Of a stretch of DNA of 12,144 nucleotides, positions 7,755 through 11,844 are shown in pieces (position 1 is the stretch's first letter; every line of letters begins with the position of its first letter). The notes under the pieces are model-generated. The model was not told where the DNA came from. It saw nothing but the letters and a program-made list of their open reading frames with translations, and searched no databases. The stretch is from Deltaproteobacteria bacterium (GTDB lineage Bacteria > Bdellovibrionota_F > JAHFAK01), in assembly GCA_023250585.1 (NCBI GenBank), contig JAHFAK010000013.1, positions 1-12,144 on the forward strand. The letters run 5' to 3'. The translations under genes and the position numbers were made by a program.

Positions 7755-7760
7755 GTCTTA

Positions 7761-7884
7761 ATACTAAGTTGCATGCAAACGCTAACTGCGTTGGCTTCGT
7801 CGTCGGCTCCTCAACGTACTCATTATGTACGTTTGCGTCGCCTTCTCCTTGCCGACGTTTATCATTTTGAATGCAACTTAGTAT
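7761..7884. repeat. Palindromic repeat element A (MITE-like)
   Basis: The ends are a perfect 14-bp inverted repeat (ATACTAAGTTGCAT at 7761-7774 and its complement at 7871-7884). Taking CTAAGTTG...CAACTTAG as the element (7764-7881, 118 bp), it is bounded by TA on both sides, as with Tc1/mariner or IS630-type insertion. The centre holds a perfect hairpin, AACGTAC / GTACGTT around a 7-base loop (7813-7833). The element is visibly richer in G and C than its surroundings. It carries no open reading frame. From 7776 to 7883 it differs from element B at one base. Confidence 0.85.
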
Positions 7885-7918: not shown

Positions 7919-8242
7919 CTAGAATCGTCTTCTTTTCCGATAGCTTCCTTGATTGCAGCCAGAACAAAGGGCAGGGCGTTCAGGTGAAGGACGGTAATAA
8001 ATAGTCGTTTGTGTGCCACAGGCAAAACAGCTCACATGATAATATCGGTTCTTTTGATTTCCTGCTTCTCGCCTATTACCATTATTGTCATGCTCATCTC
8101 GACTATTCTCTTTTTTTCTACCACGACAGGTGGGGCAGCGTTTTGGCTCTTCATATCCTTTTTCACTAAAATACTGTTGCTCAGTTTCAGTAAAAGAGAA
8201 CTCTCGAGCACAATAAACACATCGTAATAATTTTACAGCCAT
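7919..8242 (-). CDS. Double zinc-ribbon protein of the CxxC-x17-CxxC type
   Basis: A 107-residue protein with two zinc knuckle pairs. The N-terminal part (C8, C11, C36, C39) contains CVYCAREFSFTETEQQYF and EEPKRCPTCRGRKK, matching the small probable zinc-binding domain found alone or in pairs in many bacteria. A basic, Asn/Arg-rich linker follows (residues 41-66). The C-terminal part (C72, C75, C93, C96) has exactly 17 residues between its two CxxC pairs (VSCFACG to ALCSGC), the hallmark of the CxxC-x17-CxxC family. The end is strongly basic (SYRKRRRF), suggesting nucleic-acid contact. The molecular function of these families is not known to me. The gene stands alone between two near-identical repeats and has no Shine-Dalgarno before its ATG. 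Confidence 0.75.
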   Translation of the reverse strand: MAVKLLRCVYCAREFSFTETEQQYFSEKGYEEPKRCPTCRGRKKENSRDEHDNNGNRREAGNQKNRYYHVSCFACGTQTTIYYRPSPERPALCSGCNQGSYRKRRRF

Positions 8243-8282: not shown

Positions 8283-8287
8283 TTACT

Positions 8288-8413
8288 ACTACTAAGTTGT
8301 ATTCAAACGCTAACTGCGTTGGCTTCGTCGTCGGCTCCTCAACGTACTCATTACGTACGTTTGCGTCGCCTTCTCCTTGCCGACGTTTATCATTTTGAAT
8401 GCAACTTAGTAGT
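8288..8413. repeat. Palindromic repeat element B (MITE-like)
   Basis: A second copy of element A in the same orientation. The core 8304-8411 equals 7776-7883 except for one base (C at 8354, T at 7826) in the central hairpin loop. The ends form an inverted repeat of about 20 bp with one mismatch (ACTACTAAGTTG at the left end and its complement at 8402-8413). Using CTAAG...CTTAG as the ends gives 8292-8409, 118 bp, again bounded by TA on both sides. With A it brackets the zinc-ribbon gene. Confidence 0.85.
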
Positions 8414-8442: not shown

Positions 8443-8527
8443 TGCCTAGGGCCGGACTCGAACCGGCACGGAGCTAGGCTCCGAGGGATTTTAAGTCCCT
8501 TGCGTCTACCAATTCCGCCACCAAGGC
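8443..8527 (-). tRNA. tRNA-Leu (anticodon UAA)
   Basis: The minus strand folds as a class II tRNA of 85 bases. It has an acceptor GCCTTGG...CCTAGGC plus A73, a D arm starting TGGCGGAATTGGTAGACGC, an anticodon stem AGGGA/TCCCT with loop CTTAAAA (anticodon TAA), a long variable arm CGGAG-CCTAG-CTCCG, and a T arm GCCGG-TTCGAGT-CCGGC. The 3' CCA is not encoded. Position 5 against 68 of the acceptor stem is a T-T mismatch. The mature 5' end touches repeat element C, which therefore forms its leader. Confidence 0.93.
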
Positions 8528-8650
8528 CCAGCATGAAATAAGAGCGAGTATACCGTGGTTGCTTCCTCGTTTCCTCATTCGGCGTAACTAACAGTACGCC
8601 TTATTCGTCGACTTCGTCGCGCCAGTCTATTCGTTCTTATTTCATGCTGG
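8528..8650. repeat. Palindromic repeat element C
   Basis: Ends are a 20-bp inverted repeat with one mismatch (CCAGCATGAAATAAGAGCGA at 8528-8547 against the complement of 8631-8650). The centre is a hairpin with stem GGCGTA/TACGCC (8581-8600). The two arms remain partly complementary in between, so the whole 123 bp is one long imperfect palindrome. The central part is related to element D inside the PEGA lipoprotein gene, in the opposite orientation, whereas the outer ends are different. On the minus strand a TATACT (8552-8547) could serve as a -10 for the tRNA, but no matching -35 is seen. Confidence 0.8.
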
Positions 8651-10511: not shown

Positions 10512-10930
10512 ATTTACTGTCTAACTGGCGTGAATCGATTATCTCTCGAAGAATAGTCGCAAAATTTATAGACCTCCTATTGGTTTTTATTGGAATGTCA
10601 ATTCTCTATCCCTTTGGATCACTCTGTGGCATTGTGTATATGCTTGTATCTGATATGATTTTTTCGGGGCGCAGTGTCGGTAAGAAACTGATGGATATTG
10701 TAGTGGTAACCACAAAAAATGATCCCCTTGATCGCTATCAATTAGTTTTACGTAATCTTCTTTTTAGTGGTACGTTTTTCTTTTTAGCATTTTCTATTAT
10801 TGGATGGATATTATTTTTTACCGTTGGACTTTTCTTTATTATTTTTGAAATTTATTTAATGATTACCAATGACAATAATCAGCGACTTGGCGATATTATG
10901 GCTCATACGAAAGTTATTCTGAAAAAATGA
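10508..10930 (+). CDS. RDD-family membrane protein
   Basis: A 140-residue integral membrane protein with the RDD-domain layout. The signature regions are RRIVAKFIDLLLVFIG (residues 14-29, with the Arg and Asp on the first membrane helix), GRSVGKKLMDIVVV (54-67) after the second helix, and a C-terminal QRLGDIMAHTKVIL (125-138) after a pair of hydrophobic segments (about 86-120). RDD proteins are a poorly characterised family, some linked to ion transport, so I assign no substrate. The gene overlaps hemB (ATGA at 10508-10511) and the following lipoprotein gene (ATGA at 10927-10930), which indicates one operon with translational coupling. A link to haem synthesis is not implied by the sequence. 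Confidence 0.82.
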   Translation: MNLLSNWRESIISRRIVAKFIDLLLVFIGMSILYPFGSLCGIVYMLVSDMIFSGRSVGKKLMDIVVVTTKNDPLDRYQLVLRNLLFSGTFFFLAFSIIGWILFFTVGLFFIIFEIYLMITNDNNQRLGDIMAHTKVILKK

Positions 10931-11844
10931 ATTTTATGAAACACATAATCCTTTTTTGTATTTTAAACATAATGACCGATATCTTTAAACATCCACAACG
11001 CAAGAACGGAGAGACAAAGGCACGACGAAGTCGAGGAATGAGGCGTACTCTTAGTTACGCCGCAATGACGAAACGAGGAGTAACGAATGTATGCGAAGTT
11101 ATGGCGTTGTGTATAGTTCTTATTCTCGTTGGATGTGCAAAGCGTCCTGATGGTAGAGATAGTTCTCTTCCTAAAGAAATAGAGAATAATCCGGTATATA
11201 AATTTGCTCTTATTTTTGATAAAAGCTTATCGGAGGAAATAAAAAATCAAATTCGTAGTGATATACAAAAAATACCTAAAGTTGAAATTATGAGTAAAGA
11301 TAAACTCGATTATCTTTTAGAAGAAAAAGAAATCACCTGGGATGCGCTTATGAAAATGAACGAAGTTGATTTTTCGTTACGTGATCTTTCATATATTGCA
11401 ATCTTCTCTCATAAAAATGGAAAAATATATCTTCATGGCCTTAATTTTTTAAGCGGTATTGTTGAGGAAGTATCCGTAGATTATGAGCTGAAAGAAAAAA
11501 TCAATTGGCTTCGTGGAACTCGAAGTGGCTGGATTTACTTTGACTCAGATCCCTATGGAGCGGAAGTTTTTGTAGATTACAATATCGTGGGGTATACGCC
11601 ACTTCTTAAATGTTTTAAAGAAGGCAGTTATGACGTTGATCTCATCTATAAAGGCTATAATTTTCTCAAACAGAATGCTACTATCCCCTCAACCACATAT
11701 CTTTATGGAAAAGTCGATCCATCATATGTAAAAAAAGAAGATGAATTTGGTATGACCTTTAGTGAAAAAATGCAGGCGGGTTTTGTTGCCATAGTCACGA
11801 TTTCGTCTATTGCTCTTGCGATTATTCTGCCGATTGCGTTGTAG
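10927..11844 (+). CDS. PEGA-domain lipoprotein with a repeat-derived N-terminal segment
   Basis: The frame encodes 305 residues from the ATGA overlap at 10927. A lipobox LVGC with Cys70 follows a hydrophobic run (ALCIVLIL), so the mature lipoprotein begins at residue 70. Residues 75-190 form a mixed alpha/beta region I do not recognise (KFALIFDKSLSEEIKNQIR, LRDLSYIAIFSHKNGKIY). Residues about 200-245 form a PEGA domain (GWIYFDSDPYGAEVFVD, GYTPLLKCFKEGSYDVDLIY), common in surface and cell-wall-associated proteins. A hydrophobic segment (about 286-305) closes the protein. The odd part is residues ~23-60, encoded by repeat element D. The working start may be 10927 (coupled to the previous gene) or an ATG inside the repeat at 11065, which gives MTKRGVTN and then the hydrophobic run, a normal lipoprotein signal peptide, though without an obvious ribosome site. 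Confidence 0.72.
   Translation: MNFMKHIILFCILNIMTDIFKHPQRKNGETKARRSRGMRRTLSYAAMTKRGVTNVCEVMALCIVLILVGCAKRPDGRDSSLPKEIENNPVYKFALIFDKSLSEEIKNQIRSDIQKIPKVEIMSKDKLDYLLEEKEITWDALMKMNEVDFSLRDLSYIAIFSHKNGKIYLHGLNFLSGIVEEVSVDYELKEKINWLRGTRSGWIYFDSDPYGAEVFVDYNIVGYTPLLKCFKEGSYDVDLIYKGYNFLKQNATIPSTTYLYGKVDPSYVKKEDEFGMTFSEKMQAGFVAIVTISSIALAIILPIAL
10994..11111. repeat. Palindromic repeat element D, inside a coding region
   Basis: A relative of element C in reverse orientation: shared blocks include CGACGAAGTCGA, AGGCGTACT, TTAGTTACGCCG and GAAACGAGGA in the same order and near-identical spacing. Its own ends form a different inverted repeat (CACAACGCAAGAAC at 10994-11007 against the complement of 11098-11111, 12 of 14 matching). 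The central hairpin is GGCGTA/TACGCC near 11042-11061. It is open in the lipoprotein frame throughout. Confidence 0.75.

Follow-up and report, generated by a model that had tools for sequence, protein, structure and literature searches.

Protein-coding palindromes are known mainly from Rickettsia and Wolbachia. The Rickettsia palindromic elements (RPEs) are palindromes of 105-146 bp with terminal inverted repeats and many copies, which lie in frame within conserved protein genes, in some cases with TA at their termini, and one RPE-bearing protein, Gmk, has been shown to be active (Ogata 2000, 2002; PMC2229807; PMC10969869). In Yersinia, the signal peptide of YPO1552 is partly formed by the MITE YPAL/RU-2 (PMC2759123). 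The Correia/NEMIS elements of Neisseria occur in a 155-bp and a 107-bp form with terminal inverted repeats and TA termini; it is the 107-bp form that has an open frame and lies inside ORFs (PMC2229807). The QMITEs of Coxiella burnetii are MITEs through which genes have acquired stop codons, tails at the C-terminus or inserts that keep the frame (PMC5896051).

Here, we compare these systems with element D, a repeat located in a window of 12,144 nucleotides, the whole stretch of DNA analyzed. Our preferred interpretation, which we hold with reasonable confidence, is that D is a non-autonomous, MITE-like palindrome that inserted at a TA in the signal peptide of a lipoprotein, and that the protein is likely read through.

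The lipoprotein gene and the boundaries of element D

The lipoprotein ORF (10927-11844, + strand) has 305 codons and is preceded by hemB and an RDD-family gene, in that order, the stop of the latter overlapping its start (ATGA). It is open right through the repeat, which agrees with the initial annotation that placed D inside an open frame between the coupled ATG at 10927 and the lipobox Cys70. The mature protein contains a PEGA domain (PF08308, E 9.6e-7) and a C-terminal hydrophobic segment. The native 5' part (10927-10963, +) consists of the coupled ATG, the n-region and half of the h-region (MNFMKHIILFCI), and VLILVGC, the other native half of the signal peptide, is found at 11116-11136 (+), with the lipobox LVGC at 11125-11136 and its Cys, residue 70, at 11134-11136. 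As in bacterial lipoproteins generally, the lipobox Cys follows a hydrophobic signal, and it is conserved in the orthologue in genome G001.

The search of the window genome used positions 10970-11110 as query and returned 35 matches (E 5.5e-69 for the query itself and 2.5e-53 for the next copy), which bears out the earlier suggestion that D is a repeat element; the copies were then aligned with their flanks and studied as loci. About 26 substantial copies, along with fragments, represent the family in this genome. The length of 118 bp first given for D has to be corrected, because the element extends from the TA at 10964 to the TA at 11115 in the copy alignment and the shorter version thus misses the left module. 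The element proper measures 148 bp (10966-11113, +), and with the TA duplication the net insertion is 150 bp, or 50 codons. Likewise, about 50 residues (NIM...CI) are element-coded rather than about 38, the codons for NIMTDIF belong to the element, and the native sequence to its left is MNFMKHIILFCIL only.

D is composed of a 26-bp outer left module, which is a degenerate terminal repeat in the window copy, and an inner palindromic unit of 126 nt (10990-11115, +; terminal stem CACAACGCAAGAAC / GTTATGGCGTTGTG) that is common to the other phyla. The inner unit holds the conserved core with an internal hairpin (GGCGTAC..GTTACGCC; 11014-11087, +) and an internal in-frame ATG (11065-11067, +). Copy length is nearly constant: the inner palindrome has 126 nt from TATA to TATA in most copies, and in many it follows a 26-nt module in which the terminal sequence is repeated. 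Counting the outer TAs, the full form has 152 nt (10964-11115 in the window), and the element plus one TA has 150 nt. D and its relatives are short, multi-copy and without a coding gene of their own, with terminal stems of about 16 bp in 59 copies from five genomes, all of which are features of MITEs.

When the flanks of D are joined at the TA, ATGAATTTTATGAAACACATAATCCTTTTTTGTATTT-TA-GTTCTTATTCTCGTTGGATGT becomes MNFMKHIILFCILVLILVGC, a standard lipoprotein signal peptide that reads in frame as MNFMKHIILFCIL/VLILVGCAKRPD (MNFMKHIILFCILVLILVGCAKRPD). The junction is MKHIILFCIL/VLILVGC and not ...LNI...IVLILVGC, as had been proposed. The predicted empty site is TTTTGTATTT-TA-GTTCTTATTC, and the predicted empty allele ...TTTTGTATTTTAGTTCTTATTC.... 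The putative target duplications are at 10964-10965 (+), from the reconstituted frames of the window locus (L001), L003 and L013, and at 11114-11115 (+), from the copy alignment and the joined flanks. TA is found at both ends in most copies, the ends of inner-only copies being less clear, and the three signal peptides (L001, L003 and L013) are restored only when one TA is kept. We infer the duplication in this manner because no insert-free close relative was among the two genomes of the phylum that were compared, and no true empty allele was seen.

The search for orthologues covered 98 genomes, related and other, and identified one good full-length orthologue of the lipoprotein, in G001, the only other genome of the phylum searched and a class-level relative of the window genome. 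The orthologue is situated directly behind hemB and begins MKAEHRLSGALLLVVLLGSGACGPKRPD, a compact lipoprotein signal; in the alignment, its Cys and KRPD match Cys70-A-KRPD of the window protein (C-x-KRPD context), and the 50 extra residues are absent. The orthologue comparison, which had been recommended as a check, thus returned a lipobox Cys with no insert. At the level of sequence, it shows that the lipoprotein gene behind element D, lipobox Cys included, is intact and conserved beside hemB in G001.

Sister copies in the genome and in other phyla

Two more Sec signals are split in the window genome, in L003 (C148), where 153 nt of element separate MKKII from IALFFVTTSAILAET, and in L013 (C152), where 150 nt separate MKKKYS from IILLLFSLPQFVGA. 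Both are open throughout and both are located at an ATGA overlap with the upstream gene. Since no orthologue of the L013 gene was found in G001, its empty site is read solely from the joined flanks. The split of an original signal peptide by D, as first suggested, is upheld by the joined flanks, by G001 and by L003 and L013. Signal peptides were hit by three of the 26 copies (P about 0.003 when signals are taken to occupy 1.1% of the genome, an assumed fraction in a post hoc calculation).

Inspection of other ORFs for in-frame copies, also suggested earlier, identified L012 and L014 in addition to L003 and L013. In L012, the copy lies in frame near the N-terminus of purE, which overlaps purF (gene names by sequence resemblance), and in L014 it lies in frame between the propeller and barrel domains of a 988-residue ORF, the orthologue of which in G001 has both domains in one frame and no insert. 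The L014 copy is inner-only with a nominal net length of 124 nt, which is not a multiple of 3 although the flanking domains share a frame; its exact ends may differ, or there may be a compensating change. Elsewhere, a copy contributes the stop codon or a short tail of a gene (rplC in L008; L006; L028), and some copies sit just upstream of gene starts.

Several variants of the family were also observed. In three copies (L027 866-1128, L023 1345-1606 and L022 1344-1610), the core is interrupted by an extra segment (CCTGCTTCGTTCCTACGGAACTACGCAGGACG...), which makes them about 110 nt longer; the beginning of this segment looks palindromic. Solo fragments without a core (L064 1501-1535, L042 1501-1539 and L046 1495-1518) include a mini-palindrome of 35 bp, as well as left modules or terminal repeats that stand on their own. 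Directly upstream of the tRNA gene at 8443-8527 (- strand), the window itself contains an element (8528-8650, - strand; core match C43:8564-8638) with the same core as D and different terminal repeats (CCAGCATGAAATAAGA); the core and the ends appear to be exchangeable modules. A small ORF, Cys-rich and zinc-ribbon-like (7919-8242, - strand), lies between two 125-nt palindromic elements (7759-7883 and 8287-8411) that are 97% identical and have yet other terminal repeats (TACTAAGTTGCATKCAAA).

The wider family was sought in a single exact-pattern scan of the GTDB genomes with the core, and four further carriers emerged: GWA2_55_10, which is labelled Deltaproteobacteria, a bin from Hainich groundwater, and one MAG each from Nitrospirae and Nitrospinota. 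When the whole genomes of these carriers were searched, three had 37-47 matches and the fourth had 7; many of the matches contain the core only. Judged by these matches, at least five uncultured bacteria, distantly related to one another, carry the repeat family. Most near-full-length copies examined in the other carriers are intergenic and close to gene boundaries. In the Nitrospinota MAG, a copy (L146 1461-1587) lies in frame inside mtaB, a tRNA methylthiotransferase gene, where it adds about 43 residues, and the gene keeps a full-length match to TIGR01579 (426 bits vs. a cut-off of 357). Furthermore, the element in L109 of GWA2_55_10 supplies MRSYDALY to a menA-like prenyltransferase. In-frame insertion with the frame kept, as in the RPEs, was thus found in six loci (L001, L003, L012, L013, L014 and mtaB in L146), and the analogy drawn earlier with these elements is an apt one as to behavior.

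The terminal inverted repeats vary between copies, with both sides changing together (for example in L015, L016, L019 and L147). In the 59 terminal stems, one pair is T-A in 13, A-T in 13, C-G in 11 and G-C in 7 copies, and paired in 80% vs. 40% after shuffling, while a second pair is G-C in 37 and C-G in 17, counts that ignore kinship among the copies and overstate the independent changes. Because the terminal stems stay paired while their sequence changes, we conclude that the palindrome itself is maintained, whether it serves as the substrate of a transposase or acts as a folded strand. The ends of ordinary MITEs are bound by one transposase, unlike the covarying terminal repeats observed here. 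Beside genes, the sense-downstream orientation outnumbers the antisense (26 vs. 13, p about 0.05), and left ends lie by gene 3' ends in 34 cases vs. 13, both from mechanical ORF calls and only suggestive of an orientation preference.

A DDE_3 search for an autonomous parent returned one partial IS630/DDE_3 ORF with no matching ends beside it. Y1_Tnp was considered as a common mobilizer and rejected, as Y1 transposases are present in four of the five carrier genomes and absent in G098. The DDE_3 and Y1_Tnp searches thus identified no mobilizing transposase for the family. Rfam gave no match except the tRNA, and no virus or plasmid carrying the element was found in viral_contigs or PLSDB.

Translation start and fate of the gene

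The copy alignment and the reconstituted empty site show that the element inserted at a TA within the hydrophobic-core codons of the signal peptide. Because the full-length element with its TA duplication is 150 bp and the copy is open in the phase in which it landed, the gene gained 50 codons with its frame kept. Translation most likely still starts at the coupled ATG (10927/10936) and reads through the element. The signal or anchor for lipidation at Cys70 would then be the later half of the former signal, which the element has extended by VMALCI and to which it has added a strongly basic stretch upstream. For this combination of read-through and a rebuilt signal or anchor, we put the chances at about even; a 57-residue basic n-region after the first hydrophobic stretch is unusual and counts against it.

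It had also been proposed that D supplies a new start, MTKRG. Translation would then begin at ATG 11065 (MTKRGVTNVCEVMALCIVLILVGC) and give a normal 24-residue signal peptide, the upstream region being untranslated or a separate short peptide, and MTKRG with VMALCIVLILVGC is indeed a well-formed lipoprotein signal. In the copies read in frame 2 (purE in L012, L013, L027 and L109), AGGAG and ATGCGAAG are in frame with the gene, with a duplex of -8.4 kcal/mol in the three that were tested (L012, L013 and L027). However, the window copy uses the alternative open frame, in which no ATG has a correctly spaced Shine-Dalgarno (+0.5 kcal/mol at 11065 and -0.5 kcal/mol at 11101; at 11038 the Shine-Dalgarno abuts the ATG), and the native coupled ATG at 10927, the likelier start, is still present; of the candidate starts, those at 10927/10936 alone have support. 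We regard a start inside D, the leading alternative to read-through, as possible but doubtful; since the Shine-Dalgarno and its ATG belong to the other open frame, it may fit the sister copies more than the window copy. The right end gives AGGAG-N10-ATG in frame with purE (L012 1439-1610), a flippase-like gene (L027 1066-1128) and the menA-like gene (L109 about 1600; all in element-oriented coordinates), and these are candidates for element-donated translation starts. A broader version holds that the right end is a portable start module, in which one open frame offers AGGAG and ATG, and the other a basic start followed by a semi-hydrophobic tail. Selection would then retain insertions located at gene starts and in signal peptides, since the 5' end is restored by the element, and the family would donate N-termini and signal peptides across phyla, a scenario that we consider improbable.

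The insertion could instead have killed export, leaving a young pseudogene or a mislocalized protein with a frame that is open by element composition. When the element is shuffled by dinucleotides, the frame that it uses stays open in 3.5% of the shuffles, but the family consensus is already largely open in the frame of D, and open or nearly so in several frames, and the openness of this single copy is therefore no evidence of selection. The window copy has 7 private changes in 152 nt, and in simulations restricted to substitutions, roughly 20-28% of runs keep 235 codons free of stops by chance, which is not improbable for a young insertion. The age of the insertion thus gives little support for gene function afterward, and the product is a predicted one. 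We nevertheless find such an inactivation of export unlikely, as at least four 5' ends (L001, L003, L012 and L013) and two conserved genes (L014 and L146) are all uninterrupted. That the 50 residues are ancestral to the lipoprotein and were never inserted, for which the open frame is the sole support, is scarcely credible: the G001 orthologue is without them, and the copy census, in which the same DNA recurs about 26 times at unrelated genome sites and again in other phyla, refutes this idea.

Relation to described palindromic elements

The behavior of the D family is already known, since RPEs insert in frame and YPO1552 has a MITE-derived signal peptide. In the open-licence papers searched, three things appear to be undescribed: the family itself, its presence in several phyla, and the recurrent splitting of signal peptides in phase where two genes overlap. 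A signal peptide split with its frame kept, three times in one genome, offers natural experiments in the rebuilding of secretion signals by a random insert. The family has also inserted in other genes for secreted proteins and even in genes for housekeeping enzymes, and it points to a general way for mobile DNA to reshape the N-termini of proteins.

The QMITEs belong to another host, and splitting of signal peptides is not reported for them in the part of the account considered (PMC5896051). In YPO1552, RU-2 contributes a hydrophobic cluster, whereas D splits an existing signal peptide in phase and leaves both native halves recognizable. Unlike the Correia/NEMIS elements, the D family has terminal stems that vary yet stay paired and a core common to several phyla. 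The terminal inverted repeat of Correia/NEMIS also differs in sequence from those of the D family. The RPEs are likened to D by behavior alone: both families are short (about 105-150 bp), palindromic, multi-copy and in frame in genes, but the D family is found in other organisms and in several phyla, most of its copies outside the window genome are intergenic, and several of its copies are located in signal peptides or gene starts. The D family thereby extends RPE-like behavior to uncultured bacteria of several phyla.
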